Origin: Pigmentiphaga sp. NML080357
GTDB lineage: Bacteria > Pseudomonadota > Gammaproteobacteria > Burkholderiales > Burkholderiaceae_B
Assembly (NCBI RefSeq): GCF_002188465.1
Contig: NZ_NINW01000037.1
Span: 248,001 to 312,000, forward strand
Direction of reading: 5' to 3'
Length of the DNA: 64,000 nucleotides
Shown here: piece by piece, positions 50,996 to 62,095 of the stretch
How the letters are laid out: each line of letters begins with the position of its first letter
Numbering within the stretch: position 1 is the first letter of the stretch
Notes under the pieces: model-generated
Told to the model about the DNA's origin: nothing
Database searches by the model: none
The model's input: only the letters and a program-made list of their open reading frames with translations
Position numbers and translations under genes: made by a program

Positions 50996-52381
50996 TCAGG
51001 AAACCGGCACGTCTTGCACGTCGGCCTCGCGGGCGTCGGTCGCTGCGTAGTCCTCCAACCGGTTGTAGAGCGTCTTCAGACTGATGCCCAGCACCTCGGC
51101 GGCGTGCTTCTTGACGCCGCCGCAATGCTGCAGGGTGGCGAAAATCAGTCGCTTGTCGGCTTCAGCAAGCGACATGCCCACGGGAATGGTGACGATGGGC
51201 TCGCTTTCCGCCTTGCTGGCCGGAGCGAGCTGTATGGGCGCAGCCACCGTATCGATGAGCCCGCCGTCGGTCATGATGAAGGCGCGGTGCACATAGTTCT
51301 TCAGTTCGCGCACGTTACCCGGCCACGCATGCGATGCCATGTCGGCCAGCATCGCCGGGGAGAAGGCCTTGGAGGTCTTGTGGGTTTCATTCAGCTGGTC
51401 GAGGAAGCTCTGCGCCAGCAGCTCGACGTCCTTGGCGCGCTCGCGCAGTGGAGGCAGGTGGATGGGGAAGACGTTCAGCCGATGGTAGAGGTCCTCCCGC
51501 AGCTTGCCTTCAGCCACCGCCTCCTGCGGATTGCGGTTGGTGGCGGCGATGATGCGGACGTCGCATTCGATTTCCTGGTTGGTCCCCACCCGCATGAAAA
51601 CGCCCGTTTCGAGCACGCGCAGCAGCTTGACCTGCAGTTCGATCGGCATCTCGGTGATTTCGTCGAGAAACAGCGTCCCGCCGTGCGACCGCTCGAAGTA
51701 GCCCTTGTGCTGCCGTTCCGCGCCGGTGAAGCTGCCGCGTTCGTGGCCGAACATCTCGCTTTCGATCAGGTTGGGCGAGATCGCGCCGCAGTTGACCGCC
51801 AGGAAGGGCCGCTTGCGGCGCAGGCTGAGGTCGTGCAGCGTCTGGGCGGCGAGCTCCTTGCCGGTGCCGCTCTCGCCGATCAGCAGGACGGTCGCCTCGG
51901 TCGGCGCCACCTTGCCGATCTGGTCGTAGAGATCCTGCATGACCGCGGAGCTGCCCAGCATGCGGCCGAAGCGGCCGAACCGCCGCAGTTCCCCCCGTAG
52001 CGAACCGATCTCGGCCTTGAGATCGCCGGCCCGCGGGATGCGGTCCAGGATGGCCTTGAGCCGCTGCATGTTGATCGGCTTGATGAGATAGTCCGCCGCG
52101 CCCAGCCGGAGCGCGTCGACCGCGCTCTCGACGCTGGCGTGGCCGGTGATGAGGATGACTTCGACCGGGATCGAAGGGTCCAGCTCTTTGAACAGGTCCA
52201 TGCCGCTGCCGTCCGGCAGCTTGAGGTCGGTCAGGACGACGTCGGGACTCTGGCGCACGATCTGGATGCGGGCCTCCCTGAGGTCGCCCGCCACGGCCGT
52301 GGTGAACCCCTCGGCACCGACGATCTCCGCCAGGGCGGCCCGGGTGTTCGGTTCGTCATCCACGATCAGGACATGCGGCAT
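50996..52381 (-). CDS. Sigma-54-dependent response regulator (NtrC type)
   Basis: Enhancer-binding activator of about 461 residues. The receiver domain (residues 1-115) has the phosphoacceptor Asp in VLTDLKLPDGSG and the switch Lys in YLIKPI. The AAA+ domain has Walker A GESGTGKE, a GSFTGA loop (usual GAFTGA) that contacts sigma-54, and Walker B GGTLFLDEITEMP. The Fis-type DNA-binding helix is HAAEVLGISLKTLYNRLE. The ATG at 52381 follows GGAG and starts MPHVLIVDDE. No histidine kinase is adjacent, so it is an orphan regulator. Close in sequence to the receiver-less activator at 53367. Confidence 0.93.
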   Translation of the reverse strand: MPHVLIVDDEPNTRAALAEIVGAEGFTTAVAGDLREARIQIVRQSPDVVLTDLKLPDGSGMDLFKELDPSIPVEVILITGHASVESAVDALRLGAADYLIKPINMQRLKAILDRIPRAGDLKAEIGSLRGELRRFGRFGRMLGSSAVMQDLYDQIGKVAPTEATVLLIGESGTGKELAAQTLHDLSLRRKRPFLAVNCGAISPNLIESEMFGHERGSFTGAERQHKGYFERSHGGTLFLDEITEMPIELQVKLLRVLETGVFMRVGTNQEIECDVRIIAATNRNPQEAVAEGKLREDLYHRLNVFPIHLPPLRERAKDVELLAQSFLDQLNETHKTSKAFSPAMLADMASHAWPGNVRELKNYVHRAFIMTDGGLIDTVAAPIQLAPASKAESEPIVTIPVGMSLAEADKRLIFATLQHCGGVKKHAAEVLGISLKTLYNRLEDYAATDAREADVQDVPVS

Positions 52382-52542
52382 GCGTTGTGGCTCCTCGATA
52401 ATGCAGGCCATGCCGTACGTCCGTGGCCACGCCCTGTAGGCGCGGCCAAGGCGTCCGCCATGGCCTGAGATCCATGACTACTTGTCGGCGGCGCTGCCGG
52501 CGCCGTTATTTTGCCCCGAAGCGGGACCGGTGCGCAGGCCTG

Positions 52543-52863
52543 TCAGCGCCGCATGGCGAGCAGGCCGATCACCACCCCCACCGCGGCGGCAATGCCCACG
52601 GCCCGCCAGGGATTGTCGCGGACATAGGCATCGGTATGGGCGGACGCCTGGCGGTAGGAATCGACGGCACTGCGCTGCGCCTCGTGATACAGCTCGCGCG
52701 CACGCTCCAATTCGTCGTGCAGCCGCCGGCGGGCCGCCTCCAGCTCCTGGCTGGTGTAGCCCGCCGTGGTCTTGAGCAGTGCCTCGGCGTCCTCCACCAC
52801 GCCGCGGACATGGTCGACGGCCCTGTCCTTCCCGCGCAGCCAATCACCCGAATACGAACCCAT
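52543..52863 (-). CDS. ElaB/YqjD-family (DUF883) ribosome-associated membrane protein
   Basis: A 106-residue protein with a long amphipathic helix rich in Glu and Arg (LLKTTAGYTSQELEAARRRL through YHEAQRSAVDSY) and a C-terminal membrane segment preceded by the signature VRDNPWRAVGIAAAVGVVIG. E. coli YqjD and ElaB anchor ribosomes at the membrane in stationary phase, and similar action is plausible here. It follows the DUF1328 gene by 27 nt, making a two-gene operon. Confidence 0.88.
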   Translation of the reverse strand: MGSYSGDWLRGKDRAVDHVRGVVEDAEALLKTTAGYTSQELEAARRRLHDELERARELYHEAQRSAVDSYRQASAHTDAYVRDNPWRAVGIAAAVGVVIGLLAMRR

Positions 52864-52890: not shown

Positions 52891-53052
52891 CTATCTTCGG
52901 AATGCGCCCAGCAACAGCGTCACCACAAAGACGATGACGAAAATATAAAACAGGATTTTCGCGATTTCCGCCGCGCCGGAGGCAATCCCCCCGAAACCGA
53001 ACAACGCGGCAATCAATGCAATTACGAAGAAAATGGCGGCCCATCGCAACAT
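52891..53052 (-). CDS. DUF1328 (YtjA-type) small membrane protein
   Basis: A 53-residue protein, [19 protein letters not shown], then [17 protein letters not shown], a second helix and the end LLGAFRR. This is the YtjA/DUF1328 pattern. Two transmembrane helices separated by the [12 protein letters not shown] turn. The ATG at 53052 has AAGGAG upstream. Members are often induced by envelope or osmotic stress; the function is unknown. It lies directly in front of the YqjD-like gene. Confidence 0.88.
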
Positions 53053-53366
53053 TGCTTACTCCTTGTATAGAGTGACAGAACGGCAGGCGACGGCGACTCC
53101 CCGGCGTCCGATGCGTGGGCCGGGCGCAGTTTTCATACCGTGCACCGAAAACCGCGCAGCCGTTCGCAGCGCGTGCTGGTCTAAGTGCAAGCAATAGGTA
53201 AGAATTACATGAAAACTTGTAAATTCCCCTTGGACGGATGGGCGTTGCGACAGCCCGTTACCATGCTTCCGGCCGCCGGGCGCCGCCAGGCCCCCAGGTC
53301 TGCTTAGAATGACAGTTCCCGCCCGACGGGGCACTCCCGCCCTCGGCACGCCACCCCTGGAGATCA
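53053..53366. other. Divergent promoter region
   Basis: A 314-bp gap between the DUF1328 gene and the receiver-less activator gene. It contains one AT-rich island (53185-53230) that could hold promoters for either side. I checked both strands for -24/-12 elements and found only GG/GC spacing matches without further consensus, so I do not call one. Confidence 0.4.
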
Positions 53367-54443
53367 ATGCGGAAGGAACAGGCAATGCGCCCTGACGAAG
53401 CCCTGGCGCCGACTCTCGATACCGACACACCGTTCGCTTCCGACGGCGGCGCAGGCCACTCGGCCGAGCCGCCCCGGGTGGAACCGCCACGCGACCACTA
53501 CGGCCTGCTGTATGGCGCCTCCGCTCCCATGCGCGACCTGTATCAGCAGATCGCAAAGGTCGCACCCACAGCGCTGACCGTGCTCATCATCGGCGAAAGC
53601 GGCACCGGCAAGGAACTGGTCGCCCGCACCTTGCACGAGAAAAGTCCGCGCAGCGGCGGCCCGTTCATACCGGTCAACTGCGGCGCCATCCCGGCCACCC
53701 TCATCGAGGGCGAGCTGTTCGGCCACGAGAAAGGCAGCTTCACCGGTGCGGTACAGCAACATGCCGGGTACTTCGAGCGCGCGGCGGGCGGGACGATCTT
53801 CCTGGACGAGATCACGGAGATGGCGCCCGACATGCAGATCAAGCTGCTGCGCGTGCTCGAAACCGCCAGCTTCCATCGCGTCGGCGGCACAGAGCAGATC
53901 TCCACCGACGTCCGGGTGATCGCCGCCACCAACCGTGATCCCCAGGTGGCCGTGCAGGAAGGGCGATTCCGCGAAGACCTGCTCTACCGCCTGGCGGTAT
54001 TTCCGCTGCGCGTGCCGCCGCTGCGCGAACGCACCTCGGACATCGAGCTGCTGGCGCGCCGCTTCCTCGAACAGCTCAACGCCGCCGAGAAAAGCCGCAA
54101 GCGCTTTGCCAAGGGCACGCTGGACGACCTGCGGCAGCATCACTGGCCGGGCAACGTGCGAGAACTGAAGAACGCCGTCCATCGGGCCTTCATCCTCGCC
54201 GACGAGGAAGTCGAGGTGCAGAACCCCGAACCCGCGCCGCGCAACCGGCGCGTGGTGCGCCGCGAAGGCAGCCTCGAGCTGGCCGTGGGCATCCCGCTGC
54301 CGGACGCCCAGCGCGAGCTCATCCTCGCCACGCTCGCCCATTTCGGCGGCGACAAGCGGCAGACCGCCAGCACGCTGGGCATCAGCCTCAAGACGCTCTA
54401 CAACCGGCTCGATACCTACAAGCACGGCAACGGCGAAACCTGA
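53367..54443 (+). CDS. Sigma-54-dependent activator lacking a receiver domain
   Basis: Enhancer-binding protein of 358 residues with only the AAA+ domain (Walker A GESGTGKE at about residue 75, a GSFTGA loop, FLDEITEMAPDMQIKLLRVLE as Walker B region) and a C-terminal Fis helix (RQTASTLGISLKTLYNRLD). The N-terminal 45 residues are short and unstructured. There is no phosphorylation or ligand domain, so its activity must be set by its amount or by a partner, as with PspF-type activators. Its AAA+ and Fis parts closely resemble the response regulator at 50996, suggesting duplication. The ATG at 53367 follows GGAG. Confidence 0.92.
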   Translation: MRKEQAMRPDEALAPTLDTDTPFASDGGAGHSAEPPRVEPPRDHYGLLYGASAPMRDLYQQIAKVAPTALTVLIIGESGTGKELVARTLHEKSPRSGGPFIPVNCGAIPATLIEGELFGHEKGSFTGAVQQHAGYFERAAGGTIFLDEITEMAPDMQIKLLRVLETASFHRVGGTEQISTDVRVIAATNRDPQVAVQEGRFREDLLYRLAVFPLRVPPLRERTSDIELLARRFLEQLNAAEKSRKRFAKGTLDDLRQHHWPGNVRELKNAVHRAFILADEEVEVQNPEPAPRNRRVVRREGSLELAVGIPLPDAQRELILATLAHFGGDKRQTASTLGISLKTLYNRLDTYKHGNGET

Positions 54444-54458: not shown

Positions 54459-55847
54459 CTACAGCCAGCGCTCCAGCAGGCGGGACAGGAACTCCTTGAA
54501 GCGCGTGGAGATCGGCCGCCGTTTCCACTGCTCGTAGTCGACCGGCTCGGAGGCGCGGCGGTCGGCATCGAACAGCGCTTCCATCTGGGTTCCGAATTCT
54601 GCTCCGAGGATCACCGCGTTGATCTCGTGATTCAAGGTGAAGCTGCGCCAATCGAGGTTGCTGGATCCCGCCGTGGACCAGACACCGTCCACGACGGCGG
54701 TCTTGGCGTGCAGCAGCGCATCCTTGCGCTCGTAGATTTTCACGCCGGCCTTGAGCAGCTCTTCGTAATGCGAACGGCCGGCATGCAGCACGATCGAGAA
54801 GTCGCTGAAACCCGGCAACAGCAGCACCACGTCCACGCCGCGCCGGGCTGCTTCGCACAAGGCGGCGATGAAGGCGGGGTCCGGCACGAAATAAGCCATG
54901 GTGATATGGATGGACCGCTGCGAACTGTTGATCGCGGAGAGCAGTGTCAGGTAGATCGCGTGGTTATCGTCCGCACCCGGTTTGTTGACGAGGATGCGCA
55001 CGACGTGCGGGCCGCGGCGCGGCTGCTGGGGCAGGAAGTCGATGTCGCCCAGCGCGGGGCCGCCCTGGCTGCGCCACCCCTCGAGAAAGACGCGCTCCAC
55101 GTCGGGCACGGCAGGCCCGCGTATGCTGATGTGCGTGTCGCGCCAAGGCGCGTTCTTCTTGTCGGCGGCCGCGCTGCGGGAGGAACCGCCGACCGGCCGC
55201 GAAGCGTAGACGTCGCTCAGATTGATGCCTCCGACGAAGGCGACCTCGCCGTCGACCACCAGTATCTTCCGGTGGCTACGCTCGTTGATGGACCAGGTGC
55301 CGCGACTCTTGAGCGGATTGACCGGATTGAAGAAGACCACCTGGATGCCGGCCTGCCGCATGCGCTCGAACAGGTCCGGCGGGACGGACAGCGTGCCGAT
55401 GTCGTCGACCATGACGGCAACCGCCACCCCTTGGGTCCGCTTGGAGATCAGCAACTCCGCGATCCGGTTGCCGATCTCGTCGTCTTCGAAGATGTAGCTC
55501 TCCAGGTGGATGAACCGCCTGGCGGCGCCGATGGCGGCTTCCATGGCCCGGTAGGTGCTGGGGCCGTCGGCGAAAAGCTGCACCTGGTTGCCCGCCACGA
55601 GCGGCGCATCGGCCACCGCCTCTTCCACCTGGAGATGGCGTGCAAGAAAGTCCCCGGCATTGCCGGCGGCATCCAGGCGCTCGATGATGCGCCGGCTCTC
55701 GCGATACGTCAGCCACCCGGCATCGGTGGAAATGCGCACATTCTGTCTCGGGGGGACGCCCCCGTCTACGTCCGGCAACGGGCTTGCGCACTGGCACAGC
55801 AGGACGGCGCACAGCGCGTACAGGATGACGCGAAAGAATTTTCTCAT
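54459..55847 (-). CDS. Phospholipase D-family protein (cardiolipin synthase-like), probable lipoprotein
   Basis: A 462-residue protein with two HKD catalytic motifs: SHRKILVVDGEVAFVGGIN (about residues 190-208) and LLHAKTAVVDGVWSTAGSSN (about 375-394). It begins MRKFFRVILYALCAVLLCQCAS, a secretion signal that ends in a cysteine and could be a lipobox, so it probably sits in the periplasm, unlike the classical membrane-embedded cardiolipin synthase. It may transfer or hydrolyse phospholipid headgroups. Divergent from the rpoN gene, with which it shares a 214-bp promoter region. Confidence 0.85.
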   Translation of the reverse strand: MRKFFRVILYALCAVLLCQCASPLPDVDGGVPPRQNVRISTDAGWLTYRESRRIIERLDAAGNAGDFLARHLQVEEAVADAPLVAGNQVQLFADGPSTYRAMEAAIGAARRFIHLESYIFEDDEIGNRIAELLISKRTQGVAVAVMVDDIGTLSVPPDLFERMRQAGIQVVFFNPVNPLKSRGTWSINERSHRKILVVDGEVAFVGGINLSDVYASRPVGGSSRSAAADKKNAPWRDTHISIRGPAVPDVERVFLEGWRSQGGPALGDIDFLPQQPRRGPHVVRILVNKPGADDNHAIYLTLLSAINSSQRSIHITMAYFVPDPAFIAALCEAARRGVDVVLLLPGFSDFSIVLHAGRSHYEELLKAGVKIYERKDALLHAKTAVVDGVWSTAGSSNLDWRSFTLNHEINAVILGAEFGTQMEALFDADRRASEPVDYEQWKRRPISTRFKEFLSRLLERWL

Positions 55848-55905: not shown

Positions 55906-55920
55906 CGGTAAAACTTACCG
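55906..55920. promoter_or_regulatory. Palindrome in the PLD-rpoN promoter region
   Basis: CGGTAA-N3-TTACCG, a perfect 6-bp inverted repeat. It is about 65-75 bp upstream of the rpoN -24 element, a distance typical of enhancer sites for sigma-54 activators, and near the predicted PLD gene start site. Confidence 0.4.
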
Positions 55921-55982: not shown

Positions 55983-55998
55983 TGGCACGAAGCTTGCA
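55983..55998 (+). promoter_or_regulatory. Sigma-54 promoter of rpoN
   Basis: TGGCACGAAGCTTGCA matches the -24/-12 consensus TGGCACG-N4-TTGCA at every defined base with exact spacing. It lies 64 bp upstream of the rpoN start codon, so the gene for sigma-54 appears to be transcribed by sigma-54 itself. Confidence 0.85.
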
Positions 55999-56061
55999 AG
56001 GTTAAGGATCGCGACACCTCAATGGCCAGGCCCCCGCCTGGCCCAAGCATGGGAGACGGCA

Positions 56062-57504
56062 TTGGTACAAGCCACGTACGACATGCGAGTACGTCAGCAA
56101 TTGTCCTTGACGCCAAGACTCCAGCAGTCGGTCAAGCTATTGCAGATGTCCGCACTCGAATTCACGCAAGAGCTGCAGCAAGCCATCGCAAACAACCCTT
56201 TCCTGGAAGAGGATGACCAGGACCCCGCCGTCAAAGCCGAGGAATCGGTGCTGCCGGTCGATCGAAATGCCGGCGAGGCGGTGCAGGCGGAAGGATCGGA
56301 AACCCGAGATCCCGAACCGCCGCCTTTCGATCCGGAACCGTACGCCGGATCCTATCCCACCAGCCGCGTCCGCGACGATGACGGCGACGACCGCCCGGAC
56401 ATCGGGCAATGGACCCACAGTTCCGTAGGCCTGCACGACTACCTCCACCAGCAACTATGCGGCTATCGGCTTGGCGAGCGCGATCGCCTGCTGGCCGAGA
56501 TCATCATCGAGGCGCTGGACGAAGACGGCTATCTGCGCCAGGACCTCGATGAACTGGCCACCACGCTGGCGGTGACTCCCCCTCCCACCAAGGACGAATG
56601 GATGGTTGCGCTGACGCTGGTCCAGCACCTGGATGCGCCGGGACTGGCGGCCCGCAGCCTTGGCGAATGCCTGCGGCTGCAATTGGAAGCGTACGACGCG
56701 GACACGCCGGGCCGGGCCCTGGCCATCGCCATCTCGGACCAGTACCTCGACCTCATGGCGCGGCGCGAGACCGCGGAACTGCGCCGCAAGCTGGGATGCA
56801 ACGAGGAAGAGCTCGCGGTGGCCTGCCGCCTGATACGCAGCCTGACTCCCCGGCCCGGCCTGGCGTTCGCCGAACCCGAGAGCGACCACATCGTGCCGGA
56901 CGTGATCGTCCGCAAGGTCAAGAACAAATGGGTGATCACCACCAATCCCGCGGTCATGCCCAAGGCCCGCCTGCACCAGGCCTACGCCAACTTGTTCCGC
57001 AAGGCGCGCTGCGACGACCGCCCGCCGCTGGCCCAGGAGCTGCAAGAGGCACGCTGGCTGATAAGGAACGTGGAGCAGCGCTTTGCCACCATCCAGCGCG
57101 TGGCCGAGGCCATCGTGGCCCACCAGCGCACATTCTTCGACTACGGCGAGATCGCGCTCAAGCCGCTGGTGCTGCGCAAGGTGGCCGAGGAACTCGACCT
57201 GCACGAGTCGACCGTCTCGCGCGCCACCAACAACAAGTACATGGCCACGCCGCGAGGCGTATTCGAGTTCAAGCATTTCTTCTCGCGCGAGCTCGCGACC
57301 GACACGGGAGGCCGCTGTTCGGCCGCGGCGGTACGGGCGCTGATCCGCGACATGATCGCCGCCGAGAACCGCCGCGACCCGCTTTCCGACGTGGCCTTGA
57401 CCCGCATGCTGGCCGAGCAGGGCGTGGTCGTGGCGCGGCGCACGGTCACCAAGTACCGGGACCTGATGAAAGTGCCGCCGGCGGAATTGCGCAAACATCC
57501 CTGA
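56062..57504 (+). CDS. rpoN: RNA polymerase sigma-54 factor, probable second copy
   Basis: Sigma factor of 480 residues. Region I has the Gln/Leu-rich MRVRQQLSLTPRLQQSVKLL, region II is acidic (about residues 50-115), and region III has the core-binding part. The C-terminus has FKHFFSRELATDTGG and the RpoN box ARRTVTKYRD (consensus ARRTVAKYRE), which reads the -24 element. The start is TTG at 56062 with a GGGAGA ribosome site; ATG 56083 is an alternative. The usual rpoN neighbours (lptB, hpf, ptsN) are absent, so this is likely a paralogue. A perfect sigma-54 promoter precedes it. Confidence 0.93.
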   Translation: MVQATYDMRVRQQLSLTPRLQQSVKLLQMSALEFTQELQQAIANNPFLEEDDQDPAVKAEESVLPVDRNAGEAVQAEGSETRDPEPPPFDPEPYAGSYPTSRVRDDDGDDRPDIGQWTHSSVGLHDYLHQQLCGYRLGERDRLLAEIIIEALDEDGYLRQDLDELATTLAVTPPPTKDEWMVALTLVQHLDAPGLAARSLGECLRLQLEAYDADTPGRALAIAISDQYLDLMARRETAELRRKLGCNEEELAVACRLIRSLTPRPGLAFAEPESDHIVPDVIVRKVKNKWVITTNPAVMPKARLHQAYANLFRKARCDDRPPLAQELQEARWLIRNVEQRFATIQRVAEAIVAHQRTFFDYGEIALKPLVLRKVAEELDLHESTVSRATNNKYMATPRGVFEFKHFFSRELATDTGGRCSAAAVRALIRDMIAAENRRDPLSDVALTRMLAEQGVVVARRTVTKYRDLMKVPPAELRKHP

Positions 57505-57554
57505 GCCATTAAAACGGTGACATCGGGGCACGTGGCCTCTTGCGGATTCCGCCG

Positions 57555-59501
57555 ATGCGAATCACAAAACTGCTCGCGGCCGTTGCCGGCCTCATCGTCC
57601 TTCTGGTCGTTGCCGCCCTCTTGACCGACTGGCGTTTCCTGCGCGGGCCGGTCGAGAGGCTGGCCACCGAAAGACTGGGCCGGCCGGTCGCCCTGGACGA
57701 CTTCCGGATGCGGCTACGGCCCGTCACCCGCATCCGGCTCCACGGGCTGCAGGTCGCCAATCTTCCGCAGGCCCAACCGGCGCAGATGATCGAGGCCGAG
57801 ACGGTCGAGGTCCATATCCGGCTGCTGCCGCTGCTCAAGCGGGCCATCGTGCTCGACCTGCTGTCGGTGGATGGCGGACAGGCCCATCTCGCTCGGGACG
57901 CCTCGGGCGCCAACAACTGGACGCTGCCGCAAAAGGAGGACTCGGGCCCTCCCCCAGATGTCGCGCTGCGCGCTCTCTCCTTCAACCGCCTGGTGGTGGA
58001 CTACGACGACCGAGCGCTAGGCGTGACCGCGCACCTGCGGGCCGACAGCGAGGCGCCCCCGGCTTCCGGACCGGCTTACGGCATGAAGCTGGACTTCAAC
58101 GGCAAATACCACGGCGGCGCGTTCGGCGGCGTGGCGCGTACCGGCGGCATCATGACCCTGCGCGACTCGGGCACGCCGTTTCCGTTCTTCATCGACGCCA
58201 AGGGGGGGCCGACCCGCATCCGCGCCGAGGGCCAGGTAGGCGACCTCTTCGGCGATGCGCAAGTGGACGTGGCGCTGGACATCGCCGGGCCGACGCTCTC
58301 CACGCTCTATCCGTACATCAACCTGCCGCTCCCCACCACCCCTCCCTATCGCATCAAGGGCCGCCTCAAGCGAGCGGGAACGACTTTCGACCTCACCGGC
58401 ATGCAAGGCAGCATCGGCACCACCGACATCGCGGGCGACGCCCACTACGAGATGCGCCCGGACAAGCCGCTGCTGCGCGCCAAGCTCAAGAGCCGCGTGC
58501 TCGACATGAAGGACCTCGGTCCCCTGATCGGCGTGCGCGACGAGGCGCCGGCCCGCGAGGCCGCGAAGGCGCCCGCCGCGGCCGACCGGCGCGTCCTTCC
58601 CGATGCCGAGTTCCGGCTCGAGCGCCTCAACGCGATCGATGCCGACGTCGCCCTGGACGCGGGCGACGTGCGCGTGCGCGGCCCCTGGGCGTTCGACGAT
58701 TTTTCTGCCCACCTCATCCTCAAGGATGGCGTGCTCAAGCTGGCTCCGCTGAATTTCGGCTATGCCGGCGGCGATCTGCGCTCGGACATCACGCTGGACG
58801 CACGCCAGTCCGTGATCCGCACCGACGCCCGCATCGCCGTGCGTCGGGCGCGGCTGAACCGGCTCTTCCCCGACGTCGAGCTGATGAAGAAAAGCGAAGG
58901 AACGCTGGGCGCCGACGTCAAGCTCAAGACCACCGGCAATTCCGTAAGGGCGATGCTGGCGCACGCCGACGGGACCTTGGGGCTGGCGGTGACCGGTGGA
59001 GAAATATCGAACCTGCTGGTCGAGGCCATCGGCCTGGACGCGGGCCAGGCGCTCGGCTTCCTCATCGGCGGCGACAAGACGACCCGGTTGCGTTGCGCGG
59101 TCTCCACCTTCGCGGTGAAGGACGGCGTGGCGACCGCGCAAGGCCTCGTCATCGATACCGACGATACCCGGATCGACGGCAGCGGCACGATCGACTTCGG
59201 CAGCGAGCGCCTGAACCTGCGCTTCGAGCCCCAGCCCAAGGACAAAAGCATACTGGCGGCGCGCTCGCCCATCGACATCGGCGGTACGCTGGCCGATCCG
59301 GATTTCAAGATCGACAAGGCGGCCCTCTTCACGCGGGCCGGCGCATCCATCGCGCTGGGCTTCATCAACCCGCTGGCGGCGCTGATCCCGCTGATCGAGA
59401 CCGGCCCGGGTACCGACGCCGACTGCCAGGGCCTGCTGTCGAATCTGCGCGATGCGAGCCGCAACGCCGGCGCGCCGGCCAAGGGCGGCAAGTCGCGGTA
59501 G
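57555..59501 (+). CDS. AsmA-family protein
   Basis: A 648-residue envelope protein of the AsmA type: an N-terminal membrane helix (RITKLLAAVAGLIVLLVVAA), then a long periplasmic beta-rich body. Visible blocks are ERLGRPVALDDFRMRL, IEAETVEVHIRLLPLLK and the C-terminal DTRIDGSGTIDFGSERLNLRFEP, in parts. AsmA proteins are bridge-like lipid transporters between the membranes. The ATG at 57555 is preferred to a TTG at 57540. It lies 50 nt after rpoN on the same strand and may be transcribed with it. Confidence 0.9.
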   Translation: MRITKLLAAVAGLIVLLVVAALLTDWRFLRGPVERLATERLGRPVALDDFRMRLRPVTRIRLHGLQVANLPQAQPAQMIEAETVEVHIRLLPLLKRAIVLDLLSVDGGQAHLARDASGANNWTLPQKEDSGPPPDVALRALSFNRLVVDYDDRALGVTAHLRADSEAPPASGPAYGMKLDFNGKYHGGAFGGVARTGGIMTLRDSGTPFPFFIDAKGGPTRIRAEGQVGDLFGDAQVDVALDIAGPTLSTLYPYINLPLPTTPPYRIKGRLKRAGTTFDLTGMQGSIGTTDIAGDAHYEMRPDKPLLRAKLKSRVLDMKDLGPLIGVRDEAPAREAAKAPAAADRRVLPDAEFRLERLNAIDADVALDAGDVRVRGPWAFDDFSAHLILKDGVLKLAPLNFGYAGGDLRSDITLDARQSVIRTDARIAVRRARLNRLFPDVELMKKSEGTLGADVKLKTTGNSVRAMLAHADGTLGLAVTGGEISNLLVEAIGLDAGQALGFLIGGDKTTRLRCAVSTFAVKDGVATAQGLVIDTDDTRIDGSGTIDFGSERLNLRFEPQPKDKSILAARSPIDIGGTLADPDFKIDKAALFTRAGASIALGFINPLAALIPLIETGPGTDADCQGLLSNLRDASRNAGAPAKGGKSR

Positions 59502-59757: not shown

Positions 59758-61026
59758 TTAGCGCGCCAACCTCAGCCCGGCGTACTGCCAGCGCGAGGCC
59801 GGCGCGAAAAAGTTGCGGTAGGTGGCGCGCAGGTGGCTGCGCGGCGTGGCGCACGAGCCGCCCCGAAGCACCATCTGGTTGATCATGAACTTGCCGTTGT
59901 ATTCGCCCACCGCGCCGGCGGCGGGGCGGAATCCCGGGTAGGGTAGATAGGCGCTCTGCGTCCACTCCCAGACGCCGCCCAAGAACGCGGCCTTGCCCGC
60001 GCGCAGCCGCTGCGGATGGAGGAAACCTGCCTCGGCGAAATCGCCATCCCGTCCGCCCTCTTCCTCCAGGGCCAGCAGCGCCGCCCGTTCCCATTCCTGT
60101 TCGGTCGGCAAGCGGGCGCCGGCCCAGCGGGCATACGCGTCCGCCTCGTAGTAGCTCAGATGACACACGGGCTCGGCCTCGTCGACCGGACGAAGACCGG
60201 AGGTGGTATAGCAATGCCAGCCGCCGTCCTGCCGCATCCAATACAAGGGCATCTCCCACCCATGGCGGCAACGGGCATCCCAGCCGTCGGACAGCCATAG
60301 CTCGGGCCGCCGATAACCTCCGTCGTCGACGAAGGCCAGATACTCGCCGTTGGAAACCGGCCTTTGCGCCAGTTCGAACGCTTCGATCCAGACGCGATGA
60401 CGCGGCGATTCGTTGTCGAACGCAAAGCCCGCGCCGTCGTGCCCGATTTCCGCCAGCCCGGCTTCATAGCGGCGGAACGCGGCCGGCCCGGGGGCGCCGC
60501 CCGGCACGCCGCCCGCCACCGGGCGCCAGGCGGGCAGCAGGGGGTTGTGCCAGAAGTGATGCTTGAGATCCGTGGCGATCAGTTCCTGGTGCTGCTGTTC
60601 GTGCTGCAGGCCCAGCTCGATCAGGTCGAGCGCCCCGGCCGGCGGGGCGGCTTCGTCCATCCATGTCAGCAGCCGCTCCAGCACCGATTGTTGGTAGGCC
60701 AGGACGCGCTCCAGCGATGGGCGGGACAGCAGCCCGCGCTGGCCGCGCGGGTGGCGCTCGCCCACCCCGACGTAGTAGGAGTTGAACAGCTCGCGAAAGG
60801 CCGGATCGAAGGGCCGGTACTCGCGCTGCCTCGGTTCGAGCACGAAGGTTTCGAAGAACCATGCGACATGCCCGATGTGCCACTTGACCGGACTCGCCTC
60901 GGGCATGGATTGCAGCATGCAGTCCTCGGCGGACAGTCCGGCCAGCAGCGCCAGCGTGGCCTCGCGTACGGAGGCCACGCGCCGCGCCAGCAGGTCCTGG
61001 GTGGATGCTCCGTCGCGTGCGTTCAT
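59758..61026 (-). CDS. egtB: Ergothioneine sulfoxide synthase EgtB
   Basis: Non-heme iron enzyme that joins hercynine to a thiol (gamma-glutamylcysteine or cysteine) with oxygen, 422 residues. The N-terminal DinB-like part has the iron-binding HX3HXE motif in LQHEQQHQEL. The C-terminal sulfatase-modifying-factor domain has LPTEQEWERAAL, GGVWEWTQSAYLPYPGF and LRGGSCATPRSHLRATYRNF (in parts), ending GLRLAR. Coupled to egtD by ATGA. With no egtA, egtC or egtE here, completion of the pathway relies on enzymes elsewhere. Confidence 0.93.
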   Translation of the reverse strand: MNARDGASTQDLLARRVASVREATLALLAGLSAEDCMLQSMPEASPVKWHIGHVAWFFETFVLEPRQREYRPFDPAFRELFNSYYVGVGERHPRGQRGLLSRPSLERVLAYQQSVLERLLTWMDEAAPPAGALDLIELGLQHEQQHQELIATDLKHHFWHNPLLPAWRPVAGGVPGGAPGPAAFRRYEAGLAEIGHDGAGFAFDNESPRHRVWIEAFELAQRPVSNGEYLAFVDDGGYRRPELWLSDGWDARCRHGWEMPLYWMRQDGGWHCYTTSGLRPVDEAEPVCHLSYYEADAYARWAGARLPTEQEWERAALLALEEEGGRDGDFAEAGFLHPQRLRAGKAAFLGGVWEWTQSAYLPYPGFRPAAGAVGEYNGKFMINQMVLRGGSCATPRSHLRATYRNFFAPASRWQYAGLRLAR

Positions 61027-62018
61027 CGCTGGGCCAGGAACACGCCGAACCACGAACGCGGGTCGGTCCACATGTTGCGCACCGAGAATCCGGCAGCGGC
61101 CAGCATGCCGTCGAACTGCTCGGGCGTGTACTTGTACGAATGCTCGGTCACGATGGCTTCGCCGGACTCGAACAGGCGGCCGGATGCGCCCCACTGCACC
61201 CATTGCCGCTTCTGCGCGCGCAGCCGCATCTCGATCCGGCCATGGACGTCGTCGAAAACGGCCTCGTGGGCGAATTCCGCCGGCTGGAAATCGCTGCCCA
61301 GCACGCGGTTGCAGACACGCAGCACATTGCGATTGAAAGCGGCTGTCACACCCAGGTCGTCCGCATAGGCGCGTTCCATCGTCCGGCGGTCCTTGCGCAG
61401 ATCCGCGCTGATCAGGAGGCTGCCCCGCGGGCCGGCCTCCCGGCATATCGCGGCCATGAATTCGATCGCCCGTTCCGGCGAGAAATTGCCGATCGACGAA
61501 CCCGGATAGAAAAACACCGGCGGGTTGGCCTGCGGGTCGTCGAGGCTGCCGTGAAGATCGAAGTCACCGGAGAAATCGGCCTCCACGGGGACGCACGAGA
61601 TCTGGGGGAACTGCCGGCCCAGCGCAGCCACTTCGCGGCGTATCCAGTCGGCGGCGATGTCCACGCCCAGATAGCGGTAGGCATCGACGTGCCCGAGCCA
61701 GGCGCGGGACTTCGCGCAGTCCCCGCATCCCAGGTCCACCCATTGGATGCGGGACGGCAGCGCGCGGGCGATGGTGGCCCGATGGGCTTCGAAGATCGCC
61801 CGTTCGGTGCGCGTGGGATAGTACTCCTCCAGTTCGCAGATGGCGTTGAACAGCACACAGCCCTGTGCGTCATAGAGAAACTTCGGATCGATGCAAGCCC
61901 GTTCGGCCTGCAGTCCGGCGGCCAGCTCCGCCGCCCGGTTGTCGATCGGGACGCCATCGTGGCGGCGCTCCCGCGCCGCGGCGCCCTCCATCGAAAAAGC
62001 GCTGTTCGTCCCGGCCAT
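61023..62018 (-). CDS. egtD: L-histidine N-alpha-methyltransferase EgtD
   Basis: SAM-dependent enzyme that trimethylates histidine to hercynine, about 331 residues from ATG 62018 (a TTG at 62051 is an alternative). Blocks are the N-terminal DPKFLYDAQGCVLFNAIC and EYYPTRTERAIFE, SAM-binding VDLGCGDCAKSRAWL, FFYPGSSIGNFSPERAIEF and RVCNRVLGSDFQPAEFAHEA (in parts). These are diagnostic for the EgtD family. First gene of egtD-egtB-small protein. A good sigma-54-type promoter lies 80-95 bp upstream. Confidence 0.93.
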   Translation of the reverse strand: MAGTNSAFSMEGAAARERRHDGVPIDNRAAELAAGLQAERACIDPKFLYDAQGCVLFNAICELEEYYPTRTERAIFEAHRATIARALPSRIQWVDLGCGDCAKSRAWLGHVDAYRYLGVDIAADWIRREVAALGRQFPQISCVPVEADFSGDFDLHGSLDDPQANPPVFFYPGSSIGNFSPERAIEFMAAICREAGPRGSLLISADLRKDRRTMERAYADDLGVTAAFNRNVLRVCNRVLGSDFQPAEFAHEAVFDDVHGRIEMRLRAQKRQWVQWGASGRLFESGEAIVTEHSYKYTPEQFDGMLAAAGFSVRNMWTDPRSWFGVFLAQR

Positions 62019-62095
62019 CCTCTGGGGAGGACCTCGGCGTATCGTCGTCAATATCGGCTCCTAGGACAGCGGAAACCATTCCGCCTCGAGCGCCC

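Follow-up and report, generated by a model that had tools for sequence, protein, structure and literature searches.

In a 64,000-nucleotide stretch of the Pigmentiphaga sp. NML080357 genome (contig NZ_NINW01000037.1, positions 248,001 to 312,000; hereafter the window, in whose coordinates features are given), we identified a second gene for sigma-54, rpoN2 (56062..57504, + strand), that is preceded by an exact sigma-54-type -24/-12 promoter element (55983..55998, + strand) and lies near the genes of two sigma-54 activators. We consider it likely that these genes form a dedicated sigma-54 module, consisting of a response-regulator activator, an orphan activator and rpoN2, in which the canonical factor RpoN1 would drive expression of RpoN2 as a cascade through the local activators acting at GTAA/TTAC dyads, and in which RpoN2 would probably serve envelope and stress genes. 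The system belongs with the already known RpoN1-dependent rpoN2 of Burkholderiales, to which our analysis adds the age of the promoter, a candidate enhancer, an activator motif and a local association with stress genes.

The open reading frame of rpoN2 is intact and encodes 480 aa from a TTG start preceded by GGGAGA. Its product matches all three sigma-54 domains above cut-off, namely PF00309 (AID, region I), PF04963 (CBD, core-binding) and PF04552 (DBD, DNA-binding), and its top NCBIfam model is NF009118 (666.6 bits; cut-off 396), which identifies a sigma-54 factor of the NF009118/PRK12469 subfamily. As RpoN1 of the same genome passes this cut-off too, the cut-off alone is non-discriminating; RpoN1, however, scores best with NF004598. 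A preliminary description of this DNA had noted that lptB, hpf and ptsN are missing beside the gene and had suggested from this that a second rpoN exists. Both points held up when the genome was searched: rpoN2 lies outside the lptB-rpoN-hpf-ptsN cluster, and the canonical rpoN1, 44% identical to the window gene, was found at G000:C56:48114-49574 between lptA-lptB and hpf-ptsN, so the window gene is not the only rpoN but a true paralogue. In addition, rpoN1 was kept in all 29 of the searched genomes that have rpoN2, which is consistent with a dependence of rpoN2 on RpoN1, though rpoN1 is common anyway.

The promoter element, TGGCACG-AAGC-TTGCA (TGGCACGAAGCTTGCA), is intergenic, with the start of a divergent cardiolipin-synthase gene (55847) on one side and the TTG of rpoN2 (56062) on the other, and its GG and GC are 10 bases apart, as required for a sigma-54-dependent promoter. 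The match to the consensus is complete, as had been described, and the promoter stands directly upstream of rpoN2, although the 64 bp given earlier as its distance from the start codon correspond to 63 intervening bases. It is the sole exact match in the window, the runners-up carrying two mismatches, and has a score of 20.2 versus 13.7 for the second-best site when scanned with a -24/-12 matrix whose position weights are approximate, mirrored-matrix and shuffle controls serving against bias. Across the genome, TGGCACGN4TTGCW gave 5 matches versus 0 for the reversed pattern and TGGCAYRN4TTGCW gave 16 versus 2; since forward matches outnumber reversed ones, the consensus carries information in this genome. 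While a consensus alone does not prove function, and the match could in principle be a decorative product of chance in front of a gene read from a housekeeping promoter, we regard this as very improbable. An exact match in the 214-bp intergenic region has a chance expectation of ~1e-5 at the composition of the window, in line with the earlier judgement that chance is an unlikely source, the element is conserved across families while the flanking bases drift, and no sigma-70-like promoter was found on the + strand of the intergenic region. Two other exact consensus sites (G000:C6:109804 and G000:C18:26260) each have a sigma-54 activator gene no more than 2 kb away, and one of them precedes a PrpB-like methylisocitrate lyase gene. 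The rpoN2 leader also contains a GC-rich hairpin (GGCCAGG..CCTGGCC, 56021-56042) ahead of the ribosome site, and congeners have similar hairpins of differing sequence; it was rejected as a conserved element, its stability not being above that of shuffles (67 leaders, mean z 0.07).

The conservation of the promoter was evaluated in 80 loci from named genomes and 29 loci from further relatives. The close relatives of the window are found in Pigmentiphaga, then in Verticiella, Achromobacter, Bordetella, Pusillimonas, Ralstonia, Burkholderia and some Rhodocyclales and Nevskia. In nearly all of their loci rpoN2 has a -24/-12 element upstream, mostly 30-110 bp from the start; a few loci have a weak element or none (e.g. 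L034, Nevskia). Upstream of rpoN1, no such element was found in any of the 21 genomes checked, that of the window included; the top score among these regions, 11.0, falls in lptB coding sequence. In a tree of 98 sequences, one branch (SH-aLRT, a likelihood-ratio branch support, of 99) parts 53 promoter-bearing rpoN2 rows from 40 rpoN1 rows. Since the element is found before rpoN2 in the relatives, is absent at rpoN1, and a single branch parts the two, the promoter is an old property of the rpoN2 paralogue that has long been kept.

Upstream of the promoter, an alignment of the genus revealed one other conserved block, a perfect inverted repeat, GGTAA-AAC-TTACC (GGTAAAACTTACC; 55907..55919, + strand), that is invariant or nearly so and stands 63 bp from the -24 box. 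We found that GTAA-N3-TTAC is exact in 8 of 53 non-redundant rpoN2 upstream regions and TTAC-N8-GTAA in 11 of the 53 (shuffles at most 1 in each case), and that the former rises to 26 of 53 with one mismatch allowed (shuffles at most 4). When the search was confined to the stretch between -160 and -35 relative to the -24 box, 30 of 40 rpoN2 promoters had a dyad with no more than one mismatch (shuffles: mean 3.6, maximum 9). The composite of a dyad followed after 50-80 bases by a relaxed -24/-12 element occurs once per genome, at the rpoN2 promoter, in 10 of 11 genomes of the genus (controls 0), and none of the other consensus sites of the Pigmentiphaga sp. NML080357 genome has a dyad. In this 5.7-Mb genome GTAAN3TTAC occurs five times: once before rpoN2, once at 53198, once close to a diverged DUF1328 gene and twice elsewhere. 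The copy at 53198 belongs to a double dyad (GTAAGAATTAC overlapping TTACATGAAAACTTGTAA; 53198..53222, + strand), the only other place in the window with an exact dyad, which lies between the DUF1328 and orphan activator genes and is conserved there in Pigmentiphaga and at the same place in two Rhodocyclales loci. This data suggests that 55907-55919 is a probable upstream activator site, the putative enhancer of rpoN2; no integration host factor (IHF) site was found between it and the -24 box. In two genomes a dyad is also found downstream of a tiny (~25 aa) membrane-protein gene with a -24/-12-like site (L129:1501-1511, L012:14160), an arrangement that would be unusual if the dyad acts as a downstream enhancer.

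A sigma-54 promoter needs an activator, which the preliminary description had left out, and two candidates adjoin the rpoN2 region. The first is an NtrC-type response-regulator activator (50996..52411, - strand), and the second an orphan activator (enhancer-binding factor, EBF) without a sensor domain (53367..54443, + strand), which has an AAA+ domain and a Fis-type helix-turn-helix; both were assigned from Pfam matches, motif and synteny. Both carry a GSFTGA loop and the recognition helix LGISLKTLYNRL, features that recur across nearly all lineages, and within the genome GSFTGA is confined to these two of the 11 strong activator matches. This arrangement, with the response-regulator activator first, the orphan activator next and rpoN2 last, recurs in Pigmentiphaga, Verticiella, Achromobacter, Bordetella, Ralstonia, Burkholderia and Pusillimonas-type relatives. 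As their recognition helices are identical, the two activators are suggested to share one DNA site, and we infer that this site is the GTAA/TTAC dyad. In Ralstonia solanacearum, those listed as possible activators of rpoN2 are RSp1667 and RSp1668, which neighbour it and are both of the GSFTGA type, and NtrC (PMC4676750 Table 3). The last of these would allow a plain nitrogen-control cascade, in which NtrC and RpoN1 induce rpoN2 under nitrogen limitation and the local activators serve other genes. We think this unlikely, as synteny ties the activators to rpoN2 in several families, and as what is conserved upstream is a GTAA/TTAC dyad, unlike the TGCAC-N7-GTGCA site of NtrC.

The R. solanacearum gene is one of the closest known counterparts of the window gene: it is likewise a second rpoN, RpoN1 and RpoN2 being 44% identical in both organisms, it has two GSFTGA activators nearby, and Ray et al. 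2015 report that rpoN2 (RSp1671) has TGGCACAGCCTTTGCA, the same kind of promoter, at the same distance of 63 nt upstream (PMC4371752). NF009118 is also the top model both for the window protein and for RpoN2 of another Ralstonia strain (L023). Unlike the window gene, R. solanacearum rpoN2 is on a megaplasmid, and the Ralstonia loci examined have no exact GTAA/TTAC dyad; the dyad, the divergent cardiolipin-synthase gene and an AsmA gene adjoining rpoN2 set Pigmentiphaga apart. The only experiment that we found on how a counterpart is driven was made in R. solanacearum, where rpoN1 is expressed throughout, whereas rpoN2 stays off in complete medium, is turned on in minimal medium and loses its expression completely in an rpoN1 mutant (PMC4371752). 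Since expression is lost in that mutant, RpoN2 cannot sustain its own expression alone and RpoN1 acts upstream, and by analogy this literature indicates that rpoN2 of Pigmentiphaga depends on RpoN1 as well.

These observations bear on the claim of the preliminary description that rpoN2 is a self-amplifying sigma factor, with its own holoenzyme as the main user of the promoter and a switch-like or bistable output. The second rpoN, the location of the usual neighbours elsewhere and the non-random, conserved promoter all stood, a full-consensus promoter is usable by any sigma-54, R. solanacearum RpoN2 functions as a sigma factor and complements an E. coli rpoN mutant (PMC4676750), and an enrichment of rpoN genes among those behind sigma-54 promoters has been reported for beta-Proteobacteria (PMC12316311). 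We nevertheless find autoregulation as the main drive doubtful, as the Ralstonia counterpart needs RpoN1 and cannot sustain itself (PMC4371752), and the prxS-rpoN2 promoter of Mesorhizobium loti is still active in an rpoN2 mutant (PMC3538637). That system, known also from Rhizobium etli, is similar in that a second rpoN is read from a sigma-54 promoter via an activator, there NifA; it differs in being alphaproteobacterial, read through prxS and controlled by a nitrogen-fixation activator, and it may be a different paralogue (PMC3538637). In the cascade that we favor, a signal would activate one or both local activators. Bound to the dyads ~63 bp ahead of the -24 box, these would use ATP to open the closed complex of sigma-54 RNA polymerase at 55983-55998. 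Because Ralstonia rpoN2 expression needs RpoN1 (PMC4371752), the starting sigma-54 would be housekeeping RpoN1, making the circuit first of all a cascade from RpoN1 to RpoN2. Sharing the same core consensus, RpoN2 may in turn contribute to its own transcription; self-amplification of this kind is possible, and a bistable output would be speculation.

RpoN2 would probably serve cell-envelope and general-stress genes. The window neighbours belong to membrane or stress families: a DUF1328 small membrane protein of the YtjA type (52891..53052, - strand; PF07043, 57.7 bits), a DUF883 inner-membrane protein of the ElaB/YqjD type (52543..52863, - strand; PF05957/PF19029) and the divergent cardiolipin synthase of the phospholipase D family (54459..55847, - strand; Pfam PLDc_2, TIGR04265 over cut-off). 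These adjoining genes would be examples of its targets. Across the comparison set, rpoN2 flanks hold 89 strong -24/-12 sites versus 5 for the mirrored matrix, ~40 of the 89 being rpoN2's own, and canonical rpoN loci hold 14 versus 0 in ~0.7 times the sequence. In the rpoN2 flanks, 17 of 38 CsbD, DUF1328, BON and DUF883 genes have a -24/-12 site (mirrored 0), mainly in Ralstonia, Rhodocyclales and unclassified Betaproteobacteria. Such promoters stand 25-90 bp before genes of these four families in loci from several beta-proteobacterial lineages (L042, L043, L046, L049, L023, L026, L027 and L015). Promoters of this kind in deeper relatives hint at a stress role of RpoN2, a broad stress regulon being no more than a hypothesis. 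In P. litoralis, two more promoters carry both a -24/-12 element and a dyad; the first precedes DUF883, and the other diverges from rpoN2. Several extra -24/-12 sites surround rpoN2 in that species (L012:4700, L012:6747, L012:10967 and L012:13984), two with exact GTAA/TTAC dyads, and the products encoded downstream are DUF883, a phospholipase-family fragment, a small hydrophilic protein and a 25-aa membrane protein.

Several results weigh against the proposed module. No exact dyad was seen at the loci of Achromobacter, Ralstonia, Verticiella and Burkholderia, even though the recognition helix is the same, so the pairing of dyad and activator is tentative. In the window itself, the DUF1328/DUF883 and orphan activator genes have no good -24/-12 site despite their dyad. 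A family-wide stress regulon was considered and rejected: since CsbD and DUF1328 copies genome-wide mostly lack -24/-12 sites, in relatives with and without rpoN2, the link to stress genes is confined to the surroundings of rpoN2 in deeper lineages. For Ralstonia rpoN2, NtrC competes as a possible activator (PMC4676750 Table 3), and R. solanacearum rpoN2 mutants displayed neither a virulence nor a metabolic phenotype (PMC4676750). Our literature searches on rpoN2 with stress or CsbD found no description of such a link. In favor of a stress role, the second sigma-54 of another Burkholderiales species, B. pseudomallei RpoN2, has been linked to the stress gene katE, whose expression it raises (PMC4745423); we assume its orthology to the window gene, and no rpoN2 promoter analysis was found in that paper.

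A more far-reaching version, which we advance as possible rather than probable, is that RpoN2 and the GSFTGA activators constitute a second sigma-54 circuit in Burkholderiales that is insulated in part, with RpoN2 in the regulon of its own activators, envelope and general-stress genes as targets, and a region I suited to the GSFTGA loop. Only two differences between RpoN1 and RpoN2 are conserved class-wide (at least 85% in each), L28M and L33F in region I (E. coli numbering), at positions that hardly vary otherwise. As Burkholderia L024 (L/L) and Ralstonia L023/L025 (L/F) break the pattern although their activators are GSFTGA, a coupling of region I to this loop is suggestive at most. With such targets, sigma-54 would do here part of the work of RpoS or SigB elsewhere, and a stress role, if it holds, would put sigma-54 to uncommon use. 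The makers of the Ralstonia mutants called the role of RpoN2 enigmatic (PMC4371752); by pointing to likely activators, to a candidate site for their binding and to a class of genes as targets, the comparative data open that role to direct tests.

Downstream of rpoN2 by 35 bases lies a gene for an AsmA-family protein (57540..59501, + strand; Pfam AsmA), which is possibly co-transcribed with it. Beyond the module, at 59758-62051, are egtB- and egtD-like ergothioneine genes; egtD or egtB is found near rpoN2 in several Achromobacter-type loci as well, and egtD of L019 has a -24/-12-like site.
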